This document shows, one piece after another, positions 5,126 through 31,856 of a stretch of 64,000 nucleotides of DNA. The notes under the pieces were generated by a model. It worked only from the letters and a program-made list of their open reading frames with translations. It did no database searches and was not told the DNA's origin. Source of the stretch: Actinomycetota bacterium (GTDB lineage: Bacteria > Actinomycetota > Actinomycetes > Streptosporangiales > Streptosporangiaceae); NCBI GenBank assembly GCA_021324595.1, contig JAJPIV010000104.1, forward strand, positions 1 to 64,000. The letters run 5' to 3'. The translations under genes were made by a program, and so were the position numbers. Within the stretch, counting starts at the first letter, position 1, and the number at the start of each line of letters is the position of its first letter.

Positions 5126-8100
5126 TCACCCATCACCCGGAACGTCCCTGATGGCATCGCCCTTCTCCGCCGCTCCGGCGGCCCGGCCTTCTCGCACCCC
5201 CCGCTGAAGGCTGGCGAACCGTTCCCGCGTGGCAGCCGGGGACCGCAGCGGGGCCGACGCGGCCGGCGCATCCGCCGCGGTTCCCGGGATGAGGTTCGCC
5301 CGCGGCACTCGCCTGGGCAGGCCGGCGGCCGTTGTCCCGCCCGACGACGGGGCGGCCGCCGCCTCGGCGGCACGCCAGCCCGCGTCGGCGGGTGACGACC
5401 AGCCTGCCGTGGCCTGAACCCCTACGCCGCCGCCCTGCCAGTCCATCGACGGCCTGCCACGGCGGAACCAGTCGGATTCGACAGCTTCGAAGATCGGCAG
5501 CCTGTTCTCGTCGCCGGCCGGGACGGCCGGGGGCACGATCACCTCACCGCCCGGGGTGCCGAAGGACGACGAGGGCGAACGGAACGCCCCGCCCAGGCGG
5601 ACGCCGGCCACCGGCGCCCCGGCCACGGGAGCGGATGGCTGCTCCTGGCCCCAGACTGACGTCGCCGGGCGGCTCTCGCCTGTCCACGTGAGCGGGCGGG
5701 CCGGGGCGCCGCGCGGCCCGGCCTCCGGCTCTGGCACGGCGTCCGCCTGCGTGGCTCCCGCGCCGGGCCGACCGGGCCCGCGCCCGATCGCCGGCAGCGG
5801 GCCGGTGGTCCTGGCCCGGCCCGGATGGGGCCCGGCGCCCGGGATCCGGTGCGGGATGCCGGTGCCGTTGCCCTCGGTCGGCGACGCGGGGGTGAAACGC
5901 GGGGCCCTGGCGGCCGCGACCTCCTGCTCGGCCGAGGAGCGCAGCTTCTCCCCCGGCCACTCGCCGCCGGCCCTGGCGCCGAAGCGGGCGCTCGGCCGGG
6001 AGGGCGCGACCGGCTCCAGCGCCGCCCGCGCGACCTGCCCGGACAGGACGCTCGGCGACCCGGGCTTGACCCCGCTCTCGCGGACGATGACCTCGTCAGG
6101 CAGCCACACCAGCGCGGTCAGGCCCGCGCCGGCGGCCGGGCGGAGGCGGACCCGGATGCCATGCCGTGCCGCCAGCCGGGCGACCACGAACAGGCCCATC
6201 CGCCGGGACACGGCCACGTCCACCACTGGCGGGTTGTCCAGCCGCCAGTTCGCGTGGGCCATCTCCTCGGCGCTCATCCCGACTCCCTGGTCGGTGATGT
6301 CGAGCAGCACGCCGCCGCTGCTGAGCAGGTGGCCGGAGACGCTCACGGGCGTCTCCGCCGAGGAAAACGACGTCGCGTTCTCGGCGAGCTCGGCGAGCAG
6401 GTGGACGACATCGCTGACCGCGGGGCCGCGGACCAGGATCCCGGGCTGGACGTTGAGCGTCACCCGCTCGTACTGCTCGATCTCGGAGATCGCGGCCCGC
6501 AGCACGTCCACGAGCGGCACCGGCTGGTTCCACCGCCGCGACGACTCATGGCCGGCCAGGACCAGCAGGTTCTCCGAGTTGCGCCGCATCCGGGTGGCGA
6601 GGTGATCCATCTGGAACAGGCTGGCCAGCCGCTCCGGATCCTGCTCGCCCTGCTCCAGGTCGTCGATCAGGCGGATCTGGCGCTCGACGAGCGACTGGCT
6701 GCGGCGGGACAGGTTGACGAACATCGCGTTCACGTTGCCGCGCAGCGCCGCCTCGTTGGCCGCCAGCCTGATCGCCTCGCGGTGAACCTGGTCGAACGCC
6801 CGCGCGACCTCGCCGATCTCGTCGAAGGAGTCGACGTCGATCGGCTCGATGTCGGTCACGACGTCCGAGCCCTCGGCCTCGCTCATGCGGCGGACCGCCT
6901 CGGGCAGCCGCACGCCGGCCACGTCGAGGGCGCCCGCCCGCAGGCGGCGCAGCGGCCGGACCATCGACCGGCCGACGATCACCGTGAGGATCAGCGCGAT
7001 CACCAGGATCAGCAGCACGGCGGCGCCGACGACCAGCGCCGCCCTGATCGCGTCGGCGCGCAGCACGCTTGCCCGGCCGATGATCTGCGACGCGAGCCGC
7101 TGCTCGACCGACGCCATCTGGATGTCGATCGGATTCGACATGTGCCCGTACCAGTCGGCCGGGCTGGTCGAGTCGCCGGCGAGCGAGCCCTGCTGCTTCT
7201 GCGCCAGCGAGATCGCCTGGAGCTCGTCCGAGCTCGCCAGGTAGGCGACCGGGCTCACGCTGGCGTCCCACAGCCGCTGCTGAGCCACGTTCGCGGAGAT
7301 GTTGAACTGGCCGAGGTTGCTCTGCTGGGCCGACTGCGCGGCCTCCAGCGCGGTGAGCTGGCCGGGGCCGAACCCGCCCTGCAGCAGCGCGTCGACCAGG
7401 ATCGCGCGCTGCTCGGAAGCCGCCTCCTGCATGGCGGCGACCAGGCCGAGCACCTGGACGGCCTGGGCGAGCGCCGGGTCGTTCGACTCCTGGGCGATCT
7501 GGCTGTTCAGCGCGAGGACGTCATCGATCAGCTGGGCGTAATCCTGCACGACCACGAGCACGGGGAGCCTGGTGCGGAGGGCGGCGTCCCGCAGGAACGG
7601 CAGCCGGGCCAGCGAGCTCAGCGCGGTCGCGGCGGCCTGCCGCGCCTGCGGCGAGTAGCCGCCGCCGATCTGGGCGGCGAGCGCGCGCACCCGCGCGGCG
7701 TCCTGGTTGGTCGTGGAGAACGCCTGGCCGATGACCGACAGCTGGAGCGCGGCCTGGCCCGGGTGCCCGGACAGCTCGGACTGCCGGCCGCCCAGCGGCA
7801 TGCCGATGAAGACCGCGATCTGGTCGCGCTCGTCCTCCAGCGCCTGGGCGAGGTTGACGATGTCCCGGCCGAGGGTGGCCAGGGTCTGCACCCGCTGGTA
7901 GGCCAGCGCGTTGCGGGCCGATGAGGTGACGCTGATGGCGCCCAGGGCGATCGCGCTGGCGGTGGGGATGATGACGAGCAGCATCAGCCGCGAGCGCACC
8001 CGCCAGTTCCTCAGCCGCCGCCGCGAGTTGCGCCGCCGCTCCGCCGGAGCGGCGTCCTCGGTGGATCCGGCCTGGCCGGCCGGGACCCCGGCCGGCGGCT

Positions 8101-24697: not shown

Positions 24698-24850
24698 CCC
24701 GGCGCCGGACCGCCGGCGCGCCGGGTTGCCCGGCCCGGTCCGCGCTGCGATGCTGGGCGATGCGGCCGGGCCGGCGCCTCAGGCCCCCGGCCGCCCGCTG
24801 AGCCGCCCCGGCGTCCGCTCGCGCGCGCCATGCCGCCGTCGTGGAGGGTC

Positions 24851-25828
24851 ATGTACGGACAGCGCTGCCCCCGCCGCGCGCCCGCGGCCCGGCGAGCCCG
24901 CGGCGCCGCCGCGGGAGCCGCCTGCCTGGCCGCCACGGCCCTGCTCGCGGCGCCCTCGCTCGCCGCCGCCCCGGCGGCCGGGCAGGCCGCGGTCCTCGCG
25001 GGCGCGGTCGGCCGCGGCGGGCCCGCCGGCCAGCCGCGGGGGATCGCGGCGGCCGCTGCCGCGATCGCGGACGAGCGGACCGGCCGGCGCCTGTGGGCGC
25101 GCCACCCGGACCGCACCCTGCCGGTCGCCAGCCTCACCAAGGTCATGACCGCCTACGTCGTGCTCACGCGCGGGCGCATCGGCAGGTACGTCACCATCAC
25201 CCGCGCCGACGTCCGCTACGTCGGCTGCTGCATCGCGAGCGCCGGGCTGCGCGCGGGGGACGTCCTCACGGCCCGGCAGCTTCTCTACGCGATGCTGCTG
25301 CCCTCCGGCGCCGACGCGGCCCGGGCGCTCGCGGAGGCCTACGGCCCGGGAATCGCGGCATTCGTCGCGAGGATGAACGCCGCGGCCCGCCGGCTGCACC
25401 TGACCGGCACCCGCTTCACGAATTTCGACGGGGTGCCCGCCAGCGACGAGTCGACGCCGGCCAGCCTGCTCCGGCTGGGCGAGGCCGCGATGCGCCTGCC
25501 GTTCTTCCGCGCGGTGGTCCGCGCCCGGTGGCACCGGCTGCGGGCCGGGCGGCTGCACCACGCCTACCTCTGGCGGAACCGGAACCTCCTGCTCGGGCGC
25601 TACCCGGGCGCGATCGGCATCAAGACCGGCTGGACCCCGGCGGCCGGGGAATGCCTGCTCTTCGCGGCCGTGCGGGGGCACCGGGAGCTGATCGGGGTGG
25701 TCCTCGACAGCGCGCCGACCGACTCGGGCGAGACCTTCGTCGCGGCGGCCCGCCTGCTCGACTGGGCGTTCGGGGCCCGCCAGCCCGCCGCCCGGCCGGC
25801 GATGCCAGCGCACGGCCCGCTGGACTGA
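24851..25828 (+). CDS. D-alanyl-D-alanine carboxypeptidase (PBP5-like)
   Basis: A 325-residue exported serine peptidase (S11 family). A signal peptide occupies about 1-45. The SxxK motif is SLTK in VASLTKVMTAYVVL. The second motif is SGA in LLPSGADAARAL, where most PBP5 proteins have SGN. The third motif is KTG in IGIKTGWTPAAG. The enzyme trims the terminal D-Ala of peptidoglycan stem peptides. ATG 24851 is preceded by GGAGGG at ideal distance; an ATG 21 bases upstream lacks one. It ends at the tandem repeat before the two-component genes. Confidence 0.85.
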   Translation: MYGQRCPRRAPAARRARGAAAGAACLAATALLAAPSLAAAPAAGQAAVLAGAVGRGGPAGQPRGIAAAAAAIADERTGRRLWARHPDRTLPVASLTKVMTAYVVLTRGRIGRYVTITRADVRYVGCCIASAGLRAGDVLTARQLLYAMLLPSGADAARALAEAYGPGIAAFVARMNAAARRLHLTGTRFTNFDGVPASDESTPASLLRLGEAAMRLPFFRAVVRARWHRLRAGRLHHAYLWRNRNLLLGRYPGAIGIKTGWTPAAGECLLFAAVRGHRELIGVVLDSAPTDSGETFVAAARLLDWAFGARQPAARPAMPAHGPLD

Positions 25829-25934: not shown

Positions 25935-26621
25935 ATGACAGCGCAATTTGCCGCCCGGGCACCGGGCGCGGGCGCGAGCGTGCTGGTCGTCGAGGACGAC
26001 CCGGGCATCGCCACGCAGCTCGTGCGCGGCCTGACCCGGGGGGGCTACCAGGTGGACCACGTCACCACCGGCGCGGAGGCCCTCGCCCGCGGCGTGCCCG
26101 ACGTGGTGCTGCTCGACCTCGAGCTGCCCGACGGCGACGGGGTGAACGTCTGCCGGGCGCTGCGCGAGCGCTCGCCCGTCGCGATCATCGTGGTGACCGC
26201 CTACGGCGAGGAGGCCGACCGGGTCAACGCGCTCGACGCCGGCGCCGACGACTACCTCGTCAAGCCGTTCGGCCTGGCCGAGCTCCAGGCCAGGATCCGC
26301 GCCGTTCTCCGGCGGGTAAGGCCGGGTGGCGAGGTCATCCGGCATGGCCCGCTGACCGTGGACCTGCGCACGAAGAAGGTCACCGTGAACGGCCGGGACG
26401 TGGCGCTGACGCCCAAGGAGTTCGACATCCTCGAGTGCCTGGCGCTCGACCCGGGCCGGGTCGTCGGCCGGCAGGAGGTGCTCGAGTCCGCCTGGGACTC
26501 CCACTGGTACGGGCCGACCAAGGTGCTCGACGTGCACGTGGCCGCGCTGCGCCGCAAGCTCGGTGTTCCCGGGCTGATCGAGACCGTCTACGGGCGCGGG
26601 TTCCGGCTCGGCGAGGTCTGA
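25935..26621 (+). CDS. OmpR-family response regulator
   Basis: 228 residues. The receiver domain (about 15-130) has the acidic pair in VLVVEDDPG, the phospho-acceptor Asp in VVLLDLELPDGDG, the Thr in IIVVTAYGEE, and Lys in YLVKPFG. The C-terminal winged-helix domain (about 135-225) ends in KVLDVHVAALRRKLGVPGLI and ETVYGRGFRLGEV. It is the partner of the kinase encoded 1 base downstream. Its probable target is the CTGAA-N6-CTGAA repeat at 28017-28032 in front of the redox operon (inferred from position and site type). Confidence 0.92.
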   Translation: MTAQFAARAPGAGASVLVVEDDPGIATQLVRGLTRGGYQVDHVTTGAEALARGVPDVVLLDLELPDGDGVNVCRALRERSPVAIIVVTAYGEEADRVNALDAGADDYLVKPFGLAELQARIRAVLRRVRPGGEVIRHGPLTVDLRTKKVTVNGRDVALTPKEFDILECLALDPGRVVGRQEVLESAWDSHWYGPTKVLDVHVAALRRKLGVPGLIETVYGRGFRLGEV

Positions 26622-26622
26622 G

Positions 26623-28011
26623 ATGGCGCGCCGGATCGCGCTGGTCGTCACCGCCCTGATCGCGTTGCTGCTCGGCGTCGTGGCCGTCCCCCTCGGCCTG
26701 ATCACCGCCGCCCAGGACCGGCACGACTTCCGTGACGAGACGCTCGCCGCCGCCGCCGCGGTCGCCAGCGTCGCCGAGGAGCACCTGGACGATCACGCAG
26801 GCGGCCCGGGGCTGGCCCGGGCGATCAGCGAGCTCGAGCGCCAGGGCGACCGGGTCGCGGTCTACGACCCCGCCGGGCGCTGGCTGGCGGGGGCCCGGCC
26901 GATCGCGGGGATCTCGCCCGCCCTGATCGGCCGGGCGCTGGCTGCCGCCGGGCCGACGACCTACCCGGTCACCGACCGGCTGGTCGTCGTCGCGCCCGTG
27001 ATCCGGGACGAGACGTCGCTGCGGGTGGGCGTGCTCGTGCTGTCCCGGTCCACCGAGGCGCTCGACCACCGGCTCGTGGCGCTGTGGGCCTGGCTGGCCG
27101 TGGTCGCCGTCGCGGGGCTGGTCGCCGCGGCGCTGATCGCGACCGCGCTGGCGCGCTGGGTGGGCCGGCCGCTCGGCGCCCTGGAGGCCGCCGCCCAGCG
27201 GCTCGGCGACGGCGCCCTCGGCGCCCGCGCCCAGGCCCGGTCCGGCCCGCGGGAGGTGCGCAGGCTGGCCGACAACTTCAACCAGATGGCGGCCCGCCTG
27301 GAGGCGCTGGTAGACGGCCACCAGGCGATGATGGCCGACGTCTCGCACCAGCTGCGCACCCCGCTGGCCGCGCTGCGGCTCCGGCTGGACGTGCTGGCGC
27401 AGGAGTCCCCGGCCGCCATCGCCGAGGAGCTGGCGGGCGCGCAGGAAGAGGTGGCCAGGCTCTCCCGGATGGTCGACGGGCTGCTCACCGTGGCGCGCGC
27501 GGAGAACGCCTCGGCGCCGGCCGTCCCGGTCGCCGTGGAATCGGTGATCCGGGACCGGGTGGCCGCCTGGCGGCCGGCCGCCGACGAGAAGTCGGTCAGC
27601 CTGGACTCGCTGGTGCTGGAGCCGCTCACCGCCAGGATGGGGGATGGCCACCTGGAGCAGGTGCTCGACAACCTGCTCGCCAACGCGGTCGAGGCGGCCA
27701 GGCCCGGCGGCCAGATCCGGGTCAGCGCGGCGCCGGCTGACCGCCGGGTGCGGATCACCGTGGCCGACGACGGGCCCGGCATGAGCCCGCAGCAGCGGCG
27801 CGCGGCATTCCGCAGATTCGTGACGAGCACTCCGGGCGGCACCGGCCTGGGCCTGGCGATCGTGCACCGGCTGGTGACGTCCAACGGCGGGACGGCGCAG
27901 CTGTCCGACACCCCGGGCGGCGGCCTGACGGTGACGATCGACGTGCCCGCGGCCACGCGGGACCGCCTGCCGCGCCGGCCGGGCATGGCAGCCGCCGGCC
28001 GCGATCTTTAG
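26623..28011 (+). CDS. Membrane sensor histidine kinase
   Basis: A 462-residue kinase. The first membrane segment is at about 5-28, an extracytoplasmic sensor part follows to about 145, and a second membrane segment at about 148-175. HAMP comes next, with NFNQMAARLEALVDGHQAMM, then the H-box MADVSHQLRTPLAALRLRL with the phospho-acceptor His. The HATPase contains VLDNLLANAVEAARPGG, VADDGPGMS and GGTGLGLAIVHRL. It follows the response regulator by 1 base. The small periplasmic domain has no recognisable ligand-binding fold. The neighbouring redox operon suggests it monitors the cell envelope or redox state; this is inference. Confidence 0.92.
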   Translation: MARRIALVVTALIALLLGVVAVPLGLITAAQDRHDFRDETLAAAAAVASVAEEHLDDHAGGPGLARAISELERQGDRVAVYDPAGRWLAGARPIAGISPALIGRALAAAGPTTYPVTDRLVVVAPVIRDETSLRVGVLVLSRSTEALDHRLVALWAWLAVVAVAGLVAAALIATALARWVGRPLGALEAAAQRLGDGALGARAQARSGPREVRRLADNFNQMAARLEALVDGHQAMMADVSHQLRTPLAALRLRLDVLAQESPAAIAEELAGAQEEVARLSRMVDGLLTVARAENASAPAVPVAVESVIRDRVAAWRPAADEKSVSLDSLVLEPLTARMGDGHLEQVLDNLLANAVEAARPGGQIRVSAAPADRRVRITVADDGPGMSPQQRRAAFRRFVTSTPGGTGLGLAIVHRLVTSNGGTAQLSDTPGGGLTVTIDVPAATRDRLPRRPGMAAAGRDL

Positions 28012-28016
28012 CGGTT

Positions 28017-28032
28017 CTGAAGGTTTCCTGAA
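28017..28032 (+). promoter_or_regulatory. Probable response-regulator site, CTGAA-N6-CTGAA
   Basis: Two direct CTGAA repeats 11 bases apart (28017-28021 and 28028-28032) lie inside a wider inverted repeat CGGTTC...GAACCG. An 11-base direct repeat is the usual binding pattern of OmpR/PhoB-type regulators. The site is just downstream of the kinase gene and 73 bases before the first gene of the redox operon, so it likely controls that operon. Confidence 0.5.
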
Positions 28033-28104
28033 CCGTGTGCCCATGCTCGGTCGGGCATGCTGGATGACCGGAAGCCCGCACCCCCACCGCGAGGAGGATG
28101 CCGC

Positions 28105-28446
28105 ATGCCATGGCCACGGGAGAGCGCGATCGAGCGCCGTGACGGGCATCTCGCCCGCGCGCGCCGCCTCTCGGTGGGGATCGCCGCGGGCGCCGCGGCC
28201 GCGTCGGTGATGCTCGCCGCCGCGCTGGGCTCCGCGCTTCCCGGGCACTCGGTGACGACCGGTGCCCCGGGTGGCCAGGCAGGCACGGGCAGTCACGGCA
28301 CCGCCGCGGGCCAGGGCGGCTCCGGCCAGGGCGGCGCAGGCCAGGGGACCGGTTCGGGCGGCGGCCAGGGATCGGGCCTCGCTCCCCCGCAGCAGGCGCC
28401 CACCTCGGCCCCGGCGCCGCCGGTCGTCACCTCGGGCGGGTCGTGA
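28105..28446 (+). CDS. Small Gly-rich membrane-anchored protein
   Basis: 113 residues: a charged start, one hydrophobic segment (about 23-45), then a Gly/Gln/Ser-rich, low-complexity exported tail ending in a Pro-rich stretch. No domain recognised. The start ATG 28105 has GAGGAGG 7 bases upstream. Its position as first gene behind the response-regulator site and directly before the ferric-reductase-like gene suggests an accessory envelope subunit or a chaperone-like anchor of the redox complex; this is inference. Confidence 0.7.
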   Translation: MPWPRESAIERRDGHLARARRLSVGIAAGAAAASVMLAAALGSALPGHSVTTGAPGGQAGTGSHGTAAGQGGSGQGGAGQGTGSGGGQGSGLAPPQQAPTSAPAPPVVTSGGS

Positions 28447-28486: not shown

Positions 28487-29599
28487 ATGAGCGGGATCGC
28501 GCACGCGGGCCAGCCGCTCGCCGTGCCGGCCGTGGTGGGTCCCAGCATGCTGTGGTACATCACCCGTGCGACCGGGATCGTGGCGCTGGTGCTGCTCACC
28601 GGGACGGTCATGCTCGGGGTGATCGGGACGGCCCGGGCCGCGTCGCAGCGCTGGCCGCGGATCGTGACCGCGAGCCTGCACCAGAACCTCGGCCTGACCG
28701 CCGCCGCGCTGGTCGGCGTCCACGTCGTCACCACGGTCCTGGACCCGTTCGCCCCGATCGGGCTGGTGTCGGCGTTCATACCGTTCAGCTCGCCGTACCG
28801 GCCGCTGTGGCTCAGCCTCGGCACGGTGGCGTTCGACCTGCTGCTGGCCGTGCTGGTGACCAGCCTGCTCCGCGACCGCCTCAGCCACCGCGCCTGGCAG
28901 GCGGTGCACCTGCTGGTCTACGCCTGCTGGCCGGCCGCCCTCTGGCACGGGCTCGGCACCGGCACCGATTCCCGGCTGCCGTGGGTGCTGGCGATCGACC
29001 TGGCCTGCATGGCCGCGGTGGCCTGGGCGGCCTGGTGGCGCCTGTCGCTGGCCGCCAGCCCGGCCGTGCGCGGCACCGGGCTGACCGCGCTGGCCGTGCT
29101 CCCCGTGCTGACCGCCGCCTTCGTGATCGAAGGGCCGCTGCGCCCCGGCTGGGCGCTCCGGGCGGGCACGCCGCCGGCGCTGCTCGGCCGGGCGCCGGCC
29201 ACCGCCGCCGACGGGAGCGGCACCTCCGGCGGCGCCGGCCGCGCCGCGGTGCGGCTGGTGAACGCCCGGTTCACCGGGACGGTCACGGTGACGGCCGGCC
29301 CTGGCGAGCACCGGCGGACGGTCACGATCACCGGCCGCACGGTCGTCGCGCCCGCCGAGCGCATCGCGATCGTCCTGCACGGCGCGCCATCGGGCGGCGG
29401 CGTGTCGCTGACCGACGGGACCGTCCGCATCGGGGGGGCGGGCGCGCCGGCCTGGTCGGGGCCGGTCGTGGCCCTGGCCGGGGCGGACCTGGTGGCCAGC
29501 GTCTCCGGGCCCGGGGGGCGGCGGCAGGCCCGCTTCACGCTGGCGATCAGCGGCAGGTCGGTCACCGGCACGGTCAGCCTGCTGACGGGGGGCGAATAG
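28487..29599 (+). CDS. Ferric-reductase-like transmembrane haem protein
   Basis: A 370-residue protein with about six membrane helices in the first 225 residues and a soluble beta-rich domain at the C-terminus (about 240-370). Two His pairs at the spacing of bis-haem ferric-reductase-like domains are seen: His65 and His79 (HQNLG...VGVHVV) and His141 and His154 (VHLL...LWHGLG), with a further His134. No FAD/NADPH reductase domain is fused, unlike FRE/NOX proteins. The flavin function is probably supplied by the NuoF-like protein encoded 3 bases downstream. ATG 28487 is taken as start. Confidence 0.8.
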   Translation: MSGIAHAGQPLAVPAVVGPSMLWYITRATGIVALVLLTGTVMLGVIGTARAASQRWPRIVTASLHQNLGLTAAALVGVHVVTTVLDPFAPIGLVSAFIPFSSPYRPLWLSLGTVAFDLLLAVLVTSLLRDRLSHRAWQAVHLLVYACWPAALWHGLGTGTDSRLPWVLAIDLACMAAVAWAAWWRLSLAASPAVRGTGLTALAVLPVLTAAFVIEGPLRPGWALRAGTPPALLGRAPATAADGSGTSGGAGRAAVRLVNARFTGTVTVTAGPGEHRRTVTITGRTVVAPAERIAIVLHGAPSGGGVSLTDGTVRIGGAGAPAWSGPVVALAGADLVASVSGPGGRRQARFTLAISGRSVTGTVSLLTGGE

Positions 29600-29602
29600 G
29601 CG

Positions 29603-30964
29603 GTGGCCAGTCACGCGGGCCGGGCCGTGGCCACCGAGGCGGCGCTGGCGGCCGGAGCCGCCGCCCGCCGGGCGGCGCGCGCGGGGATCACGAGCAGGCT
29701 CACCGCCGGATGGCATGAGGCCGGCGGGCCGGCCACCCTGCGCGAGCACCTGCAGCGGTACGGCCCGCTGCCGCAGCCGGGCAGGAACCGCGCGCTGATC
29801 GACGCGGTCACCGCGGCCGGCCTCACCGGCCGCGGCGGCGCGGGCTTCCCCACCGGCATCAAGATGCGGGCCGTGGCCTCGCGCCGCGGCCCCGCCGTCG
29901 TGGTCGCGAACGGCATGGAGAGCGAGCCGGCCAGCGAGAAGGACAAGGCCCTGCTCGCCCGGGCGCCGCACCTGGTCCTCGACGGCGCCGTGCTGGCAGC
30001 CAGCGCGGTGGGCGCCGACTCGGTCCACGTGTGCCTCCCCCGGGGCAGGCGCCGGCTGGCCGAGGCCGTCGAGGACGCCGTGGCCGAGCGGGAGCGGGCG
30101 GGCCTGGACCCGGTCGCGATCGCGGTCCGGGCCCTGCCGCACTGGTACGTCTCCAGCGAGGAGTCCGCGCTCGTGCACTGGCTGAACGGCGGCGAGGCCA
30201 AGCCGACCGCGGTGCCGCCGCGGCCGTACGAGAAGGGCGTCGGCCAGCGCCCCACGCTGGTGGACAACGTGGAGACGCTCGCGCACGTCGCGCTCATCGG
30301 CAGGTACGGGCCCGCCTGGTTCCGCCGGGCGGGCCTGCCCGACGCGCCGGGCACCATGCTCGTCACCGTCGCCGGGGCGGTGCGGGCGCCCGGCGTCTAC
30401 GAGATCGAGGCCGGCACGCGGGTCGGCGACATCCTCGCGATGAGCGGCATGGCGGTGGACGCAGGCCCGGTCCTGGTCGGCGGTTACTTCGGCACCTGGC
30501 ACCACGCCGAGGAGGTGGCCGGCGTCCCGATGGCGCCCGGGCCGCTGCGGGCGATCGGAGCCTCGCCGGGGACGGGCGCGCTGTTCCCCCTGCCCGCCGA
30601 CTGCTGCGGCCTCGCCGAGACCGCCCGGGTGCTCGCCTGGCTGGCCGGCCAGGGAGCGGGCCAGTGCGGGCCGTGCGTGTTCGGCCTGCCCGCGATCGCC
30701 GACGACTTCGCCCAGCTCGCCGCGGGGCGGCCGAAGGGGCCGGTGCTGGACCGCCTGGACCGCCGGCTCGGCCAGGTCGGCGGGCGCGGTGCCTGCCGGC
30801 ACCCGGATGGCGCCGTCCGGCTGGCCAGGTCCGCGCTGTCCGCGTTCGCCGCCGACGTGCGCTCCCACCTGTCGAGGCGGGCGTGCCTGGCCGCCTGGCG
30901 CGGGCAGCCGCGCCAGGGCGTGCTGCCGGTTCCCCGCCCGGCAGGGGACGGGGAGTGGCTGTGA
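29603..30964 (+). CDS. NuoF-like FMN/iron-sulfur NAD(P)H-dehydrogenase subunit
   Basis: 453 residues related to the 51-kDa subunit of complex I. The FMN/NADH-binding loop GRGGAGFPTGIKM is at about 76-88; later ANGMESEPASEKDK, SSEESALVHWLNGGEAK and GQRPTLVDNVETLAHV are family hallmarks, followed by an SLBB-like part. The [4Fe-4S] motif is unusual: Cys355-x2-Cys358 and Cys398 are present, but the first of the usual three clustered cysteines is replaced by Ala352. Cys334 and Cys335 nearby might substitute. It would take electrons from NAD(P)H and pass them to the ferredoxin encoded downstream. GTG start at 29603; its last codons overlap the ferredoxin start. Confidence 0.82.
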   Translation: MASHAGRAVATEAALAAGAAARRAARAGITSRLTAGWHEAGGPATLREHLQRYGPLPQPGRNRALIDAVTAAGLTGRGGAGFPTGIKMRAVASRRGPAVVVANGMESEPASEKDKALLARAPHLVLDGAVLAASAVGADSVHVCLPRGRRRLAEAVEDAVAERERAGLDPVAIAVRALPHWYVSSEESALVHWLNGGEAKPTAVPPRPYEKGVGQRPTLVDNVETLAHVALIGRYGPAWFRRAGLPDAPGTMLVTVAGAVRAPGVYEIEAGTRVGDILAMSGMAVDAGPVLVGGYFGTWHHAEEVAGVPMAPGPLRAIGASPGTGALFPLPADCCGLAETARVLAWLAGQGAGQCGPCVFGLPAIADDFAQLAAGRPKGPVLDRLDRRLGQVGGRGACRHPDGAVRLARSALSAFAADVRSHLSRRACLAAWRGQPRQGVLPVPRPAGDGEWL

Positions 30965-31218
30965 GGAGCCGGCTGGCCGTGAACCCGATCGCCTGCACCG
31001 GGCACGGGCTGTGCGCCGACCTGCTGCCCGAGCTGGTCGGGCTGGACGAATGGGGCTACCCGATGCTCGATGGCGCGCCGGTCCCGGGCGAGCTGATGGC
31101 GCTCGCCCGGCGCGCGGTCCGCCTCTGCCCGACGCTCGCGCTCAGGCTGGAGCCGGCCGCGCCCGGCGCCGGCCGGCGCCGCCCGGCGGCCGGCTCGGAC
31201 TGGAGGGTGATGCCGTGA
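30961..31218 (+). CDS. [3Fe-4S]-type ferredoxin
   Basis: 85 residues with Cys12-x5-Cys18 (ACTGHGLC) and Cys56-Pro (RLCPTLAL), the three-cysteine pattern of small [3Fe-4S] ferredoxins. The first motif retains the common HG between the cysteines. GTG 30961 overlaps the NuoF-like stop (GTGA) and its own stop overlaps the next ATG (TGATG). It should shuttle electrons between the flavoprotein and a membrane haem protein of the operon. Confidence 0.82.
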   Translation: MRSRLAVNPIACTGHGLCADLLPELVGLDEWGYPMLDGAPVPGELMALARRAVRLCPTLALRLEPAAPGAGRRRPAAGSDWRVMP

Positions 31219-31856
31219 TGAACGTGCGGACCATGCCCCGGCACCGCAAGGCCCCGGCCGGCCGGGCCGGCGGGGCCGAGGGAAACGAGCGCCTGACCGC
31301 CATGACCGGGGCCGTGCTGCTCGTCCTCCTGGCCGCCGAGGGCGTCACGATCGCGTTCAAGCACCAGCTCCTCGCCGAGCACTTCTTCATCGGCATGCTG
31401 CTCGTCGGCCCGGTGCTGGTGAAGCTCGGCTCGACCATGTACCGGTTCGCCCGGTACTACACCGGCGCGGCGCCCTACGTGCGCAAGGGGCCGCCCGCGC
31501 CCCTGCTGCGGCTGCTCGGCCCGGTGATCGTCGTGACGTCCGCGGGCGTGATCGGCTCCGGCGTGGCGCTGGCGTTCGTCCGGCCCGGGCCGTCGATCTG
31601 GCTGGTGGCGCACAAGGGCTTCTTCGTGCTCTGGTTCTGCGCGATGACCGTTCACGTGCTGTATTACGCGCCGAGGCTGCCGAGCCTGCTCGGGCGCGGG
31701 TCGAAGGCGCGGTACCGGGCCCGCGCCGCGCTCGCCGGGGCCGGGCGGCGGTGGGCGCTGCTGACCGCATCGCTGGCCGTCGGCCTGATCCTCGCGCTCA
31801 GCACCTACCACCTGGCCGGCGGCTGGGACCGCTACCTGTCCCACGGCGGCGGCTGA
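31218..31856 (+). CDS. Cytochrome b561-like membrane protein
   Basis: 212 residues with four to five hydrophobic helices after a basic N-terminus. Candidate haem ligands are seen in FKHQLLAEHFF near the first helices and in the AHKGFFVLWFCAMTVH segment, where two His are 14 positions apart on one helix. The layout resembles the cytochrome b/b6 or b561 families, but it is divergent. It completes the operon and may be a second membrane electron acceptor. ATG 31218 shares a base with the ferredoxin stop; GGAGG lies upstream. Confidence 0.75.
   Translation: MNVRTMPRHRKAPAGRAGGAEGNERLTAMTGAVLLVLLAAEGVTIAFKHQLLAEHFFIGMLLVGPVLVKLGSTMYRFARYYTGAAPYVRKGPPAPLLRLLGPVIVVTSAGVIGSGVALAFVRPGPSIWLVAHKGFFVLWFCAMTVHVLYYAPRLPSLLGRGSKARYRARAALAGAGRRWALLTASLAVGLILALSTYHLAGGWDRYLSHGGG

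Follow-up and report, generated by a model that had tools for sequence, protein, structure and literature searches.

The locus raises a simple question: a two-component gene pair is followed by a redox operon, and a direct repeat lies between them, so is this repeat the operator through which the pair controls the operon? We examined it in the window, the whole 64,000-nucleotide stretch analysed here, which belongs to a 4.09 Mb draft genome of 168 contigs (Table 1). The earlier note had proposed a CTGAA-N6-CTGAA box with 11-base periodicity. Inspection confirmed this box, CTGAAGGTTTCCTGAA, at 28017-28032, with the starts of both CTGAA motifs 11 bp apart. It is the sole exact match in the window, against none in 100 dinucleotide shuffles; the 4.09 Mb genome holds two exact matches and none to the reversed-pattern control, the second copy lying at C61:10867 and overlapping open reading frames. 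Both CTGAA motifs are real, but the array has a third repeat, CTTTA, 11 bp upstream, making the proposed box the right-hand two-thirds of a full unit CTTTA-N6-CTGAA-N6-CTGAA at 28006-28032. The proposed box sits in the 93-bp gap between the kinase and the small protein, and the first repeat of the array crosses the kinase stop codon. The half-site gTTCtGAAc is a near-palindrome by itself. Tandem direct half-sites with a period of about 11 bp, as expected of an OmpR/PhoB-type operator, are present both in the window and in its relatives.

Table 1. Features of the regulator-redox locus in the window
Feature	Position	Strand	Remark
D-Ala-D-Ala carboxypeptidase	24830-25828		precedes regulator in gene order
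OmpR/PhoB-type response regulator (receiver + winged helix)	25935-26621	+	proposed binder of the array
Membrane histidine kinase (HAMP, HisKA, HATPase_c)	26623-28011	+	cognate kinase
Repeat 1, CTTTA	28006-28010	+	CTTAA, CTTTA or CTGAA in relatives; overlaps kinase stop TAG 28009-28011
Inverted repeat, 6 bp, CGGTTC/GAACCG	28012-28035	.	around repeats 2 and 3
Repeat 2, CTGAA	28017-28021	+	
Repeat 3, CTGAA	28028-28032	+	
-10-like hexamer CATGCT (NANNNT)	28056-28061	+	23 bp past repeat 3
Ribosome-binding site GAGGAGG	28091-28097	+	7 bp before ATG 28105; read directly
Small one-helix protein	28105-28446	+	first operon gene; C-terminal TSGGS tail
Ferric-reductase-like (MsrQ-like) transmembrane haem protein	28487-29599	+	
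NuoF-like NADH/FMN/4Fe-4S protein	29603-30964	+	
4Fe-4S ferredoxin	30961-31218	+	
Small membrane protein	31218-31856	+	last operon gene; no Pfam match

Searches for the regulator covered 60 relatives and 297 family genomes; of the latter, 33 were positive at E<=1e-70. Adding G045, a further genome of the same class, and Streptacidiphilus fuscans (L089) to these 33 yielded 34 loci which, together with the window, were oriented on the regulator; L089 is the only one used of 80 related loci, the remaining 79 showing 49% identity or less. Arrays adjoining the regulator, the kinase or the redox operon were called with a CTGAA-N6-CTGAA seed allowing at most one mismatch and then by eye. The earlier note had staked its reading on conservation of the box in orthologous loci, and an array was found in 26 of the 35 regulator-bearing loci, a count that carries shared kinship, as related genomes are not independent. 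Thirteen arrays, including that of the window, lie just after the kinase in the same direction, and the other 13 lie upstream of the regulator on the opposite strand. In this second group the divergent gene mostly belongs to a redox operon, with ferric reductase and/or NuoF homologues found in L076, L081, L082, L083, L085, L086 and L087. The array thus stays with both regulator and redox operon as the genes are rearranged, and when the redox genes are divergent it moves to them and faces them. Leave-one-out scores of the arrays range from 17.4 to 45.0, and away from the main arrays most of the approximately 314 kb scanned scores below about 12. The higher-scoring exceptions include register-shifted or opposite-strand copies, a second L045 array and some hits in nine loci negative in the seed search. 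Possible second arrays were seen in L083 (21.4), L085 (17.3) and L081 (12.2), all with NANNNT at +23.

This distribution bears on whether the repeat is merely a by-product of a conserved kinase 3' end or part of an RNA hairpin or terminator, as the overlap of repeat 1 with the kinase stop and the 6-bp inverted repeat of the window might suggest. The motif persists across different reading frames, the kinase stop codon shifting through it from outside repeat 2 in the window to inside repeat 2 in L037 and L043, and in 13 loci it lies far from the kinase end. The inverted repeat, in which the earlier note saw the box nested, is genuine in the window, where CGGTTC (28012-28017) pairs with GAACCG (28030-28035) at all six positions, but it is not conserved: the perfect 6-bp form is retained in 3 of the 26 array-bearing loci and at least 4 bp in 4. 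It is therefore probably incidental and outside the conserved signal, and can be dismissed as a functional element. In addition, no T-run follows it. Kinase coding constraint and a terminator are largely refuted by the divergent loci, and we regard this explanation as barely credible.

The conserved array is accompanied by a fixed promoter element. In 24 of the 26 array loci an NANNNT hexamer stands exactly 23 bp past repeat 3, while every other offset between 10 and 49 gives fewer than 3 of the 26; the exceptions are L037, which is 1 bp off, and L076. The A and T of the hexamer are invariant in the 24-site alignment. Clade A contributes 12 of 13 loci at +23 with no choice of register involved. 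Most clade-B sites show a degenerate repeat 3. Their two clear repeats are separated from the hexamer by 34 bp, which exceeds the usual distance by a single 11-bp unit; the gap is best read as holding a degenerate third repeat. Less weight falls on clade B than on clade A, because the clade-B register, a choice of two lying 11 bp from each other, was picked with knowledge of the -10. Among held-out arrays, the -10 was found at +23 in five of the seven examined, the failures being L242 (1 bp off) and L244. Conservation among orthologues at a fixed distance from a promoter, a mark of OmpR/PhoB-type operators, is thus seen here.

In the window, no -35 consensus was found at 28033-28038, and transcription would be predicted to start at about 28068. 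If the -10 hexamer is taken to span -12 to -7, the three repeats occupy roughly -62 to -36 and share one helix face. Repeats abutting the -35 region are the class II activation geometry of OmpR-family regulators, so phosphorylation-dependent activation of the redox operon would be expected. The regulator itself carries a receiver domain (PF00072, 3.3e-26) and a winged-helix domain (PF00486, Trans_reg_C, 9.9e-22), placing a regulator of the appropriate class next to the array.

Taken together, we propose, with a probability of about 0.83, that the neighbouring OmpR-type regulator uses the array as its operator, through which phosphorylation-driven class II activation of the redox operon takes place. 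Upon stimulation by its presumed signal, the membrane kinase would phosphorylate the regulator. The phosphorylated regulator would bind head-to-tail to CTTTA, CTGAA and CTGAA, which lie 11 bp apart on a single DNA face. The final half-site would abut the -35 region of a promoter that has CATGCT as its -10 and lacks a -35 hexamer, and the bound regulator would recruit RNA polymerase and switch on the redox operon. The sign of regulation does not follow from binding geometry alone, and the third repeat abuts the promoter; the regulator might instead repress the operon until dephosphorylated, or switch mode. We consider this unlikely, since the array lies upstream of the -10 rather than over it, a -35 consensus that could be blocked is absent, and the rigid array-promoter spacing, judged on geometry only, fits an activator. 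If activated through the upstream pair, a class of actinobacterial electron-transfer operons would have a concrete regulator, operator and promoter assigned to it. The mechanism itself is a standard response-regulator switch, and the operator can be used to locate further redox operons and to approach the question of the kinase signal.

The specificity of the array was assessed by running a promoter profile, built from sequence only (61 bp, 24 sites), on whole genomes; its E-values are rough owing to a shortened calibration. At E<=1e-3 it matched 28 places, comprising 23 training sites and five held-out ones, in 24 of the 33 regulator-bearing genomes; in 24 family genomes lacking the regulator it matched none, the best value there being 0.0023. 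The nine regulator-bearing genomes with no match at this threshold are seven of genus g75 plus G036 and G139. The held-out matches comprise L037, G003:C92, G079:C241 (by eye, before a ferric-reductase-like protein and an FMN-binding-looking protein), G207:C48 (by eye, ahead of an operon encoding ApbE-like and NuoF-like proteins) and G100:C546, for which no clear target was seen by eye. Two held-out arrays, L241 and L243, precede redox operons unlinked to the regulator. Ferric-reductase homologues gave eight matches in the regulator-less genomes; because only 6 of these 24 genomes have one, the absence of profile matches cannot alone separate the regulator from the redox operon. Six of the eight loci were scanned and contained no array (best score 7.3). 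The array is tied to the regulator by L041, L042 and L080, which have both regulator and array but in whose stretches redox genes were not detected.

These data also bear on the idea that a different regulator uses the array at the same promoters. OmpR-type paralogues are many in each genome, the window's own genome holding 28 matches to the regulator. The array nevertheless tracks the presence of the neighbouring regulator (24 of 33 genomes with it, 0 of 24 without) and stays beside it whatever the partner operon, even in the three loci just mentioned. Another binder is therefore improbable, more so than repression, and the neighbouring regulator is preferred. The claim of the earlier note that the redox operon is the direct target of the upstream pair accordingly draws support from the conserved array, the +23 spacing, the way in which the array follows regulator and redox operon, and the clean regulator-less genomes; direct binding would be its predicted step, and g75, with altered repeats, and g14/g15, with arrays facing nucleoside genes, depart from it.

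Such departures were found at several loci. In L042 the array faces a cytidine deaminase, and L041 and L080 look similar by eye; the regulator of g14/g15 may have switched target. An apparent nucleoside ABC transporter follows the regulator pair in these genera (L041, L042, L080). The divergent gene of L044 encodes a DoxX-Rieske protein. A minus-strand array in L045 precedes a small protein-ferric reductase-regulator-kinase operon yet faces away from it, and the weaker second array (+179) faces the operon. The L088 stretch gave no ferric-reductase match; its first gene past the array resembles, by eye, the DUF2231 protein of L081. The seed search was negative in 9 of the 35 loci (L040, L073, L074, L075, L077, L078, L079, L084 and L089), and a profile scan of these recovered arrays with a -10 in L084 and L089 only. 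L077 was a misfit, and L040, L073, L074, L075, L078 and L079 showed, by eye, no convincing CTGAA-type array in that scan. In genus g75 the regulator is 74-79% identical and the flanking repeats are changed, indicating that the array is not universal and was apparently lost or altered there. The window regulator's own promoter has no array. In Streptacidiphilus fuscans, a named and cultured species of another lineage, L089 carries two arrays, at 7868 and 10239, with NANNNT at +23, one directly following the kinase and preceding a small protein-ApbE-ferric reductase-NuoF-ferredoxin operon. Both arrays precede genes for small one-helix-type proteins.

Within its own genome the window site stands out, with E-values of 5e-7 (profile R1) and 1.1e-10 (profile R3) against next-best values of 0.47 and 0.0785, both on C69 upstream of a methyltransferase. 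This C69 site (C69:1471-1497, L231), which lies before a class I methyltransferase, is probably a real second site of the regulator, judging from its conservation. It reads CTTAA-N6-CTGAA, with TAGCCT or TAGCGT at +23 in the own genome and in the G002 and G004 orthologues. Sites of this type (L231, L239, L250, L254) are kept in the genus, three of the four with the +23 hexamer and that of G003 (L254) 1 bp off; the G003 paralogue L251 has no such site, and L252 scores only 15.4 and L253 only 12.2. Looser matching in the own genome (CTKAA-N6-CTKAA, one mismatch) was discarded, because 52 matches against 43 in the reversed control carry no signal.

The regulator's nearest named relative is from Streptacidiphilus, on which ground the genome is taken to belong to Actinomycetota. 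Of the 25 best curated equivalogs shown, the regulator itself passes none, scoring below the cut-off against CseB (178.3 of 350 bits) and MtrA (176.6 of 300). Residue 197 in its recognition helix (residues 190-200, 26502-26534) is Val in all 35 close loci; among 22 distant loci it is Thr in 21 and Ala in one. By alignment, this residue would correspond to Thr194 of PhoB. PhoB Thr194 contacts thymines, according to the available portion of PMC3973317. One ancestral change may underlie the correlation between residue 197 and the half-site, and a simple rule based on this residue fails for g75, which combines the same Val with changed repeats. Seventeen of the more distant regulators came from a phylum search, mostly from other classes; 14 of their stretches hold a ferric-reductase homologue, in 12 cases divergent from the regulator. 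No CTGAA-type array adjoins the regulator in the 22 distant loci, and by eye several have 11-bp repeats of the CTTTRCC kind, such as CTTTGCC and CTTAACC. We tentatively suggest, at somewhat less than even odds, an undescribed two-component system for envelope electron transfer (MsrQ-like/ApbE/NuoF-like) across Actinomycetota, whose operator drifted from the CTTTRCC to the CTGAA type with a Thr-to-Val change in the regulator.

The operon likely encodes an NADH-to-envelope electron route, as its domains (Ferric_reduct, 2e-08; Complex1_51K, 9.3e-34) indicate. Based on this domain content and on the MsrQ-like clusters in the portion of PMC8238504 available, electrons would flow from NADH through the FMN and iron-sulphur centres of the NuoF-like protein to the ferredoxin, the membrane haem and the envelope. 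The ferric-reductase-like protein has a C-terminal extension without a Pfam match, which is probably extracytoplasmic. A TSG[GAS][ST] tail recurs on the small one-helix proteins heading the operons, in 10 proteins from nine loci (the window, L039, L079, L081, L082, L083, L085, L086 and L087), with a TTTGGS variant in Streptacidiphilus (L089); it is a possible modification or docking motif.

In the open-access literature, where one listing was too broad to exhaust, we found neither this operator nor a two-component control of such redox operons described. CutR was considered as a known relative and set aside, as its site in the available text of PMC12802291, TAWATAAA, is unlike the CTGAA array. 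The MsrQ-like flavinylation clusters of Actinobacteria combine a PF01794 haem protein with a NuoF-like subunit in 31 clusters, and the excerpted text of PMC8238504 does not mention two-component control. Similarly, the window operon has a PF01794 membrane protein and an NAD(P)H-oxidising partner, and its relatives carry ApbE (by eye in L089), whereas ApbE and FMN_bind were not found among the window operon proteins tested; three ApbE matches lie elsewhere in the genome.

Two described operators come closest. The CopR operator of Corynebacterium glutamicum is TGAAGATTTnnTGAAGATTT, which PMC3140484 reports to be the sole functional site of its genome, with phosphorylation raising the affinity of CopR. 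Like its window counterpart CTGAAGGTTTCCTGAA, it is an 11-bp direct repeat with TGAA cores beside the regulator gene; unlike the window array it has two repeats rather than three and drives copper genes, none of which was seen in the window operon. The window regulator scores 143.1 bits against the 279.2 cut-off of the heavy-metal subfamily cztR_silR_copR. The PmrA box, CTTAAG-N5-XTTAAT in the available portion of PMC3973317, likewise has head-to-tail half-sites with an 11-bp period, and CTTAA is among the two commonest first repeats in our set, but it comprises two half-sites instead of three, and the later repeats of the window type are CTGAA. Against PmrA the regulator reaches 154.6 bits, the cut-off being 330. 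By profile test the regulator thus falls in neither family, and its operator resembles those of both CopR and PmrA in period and core.
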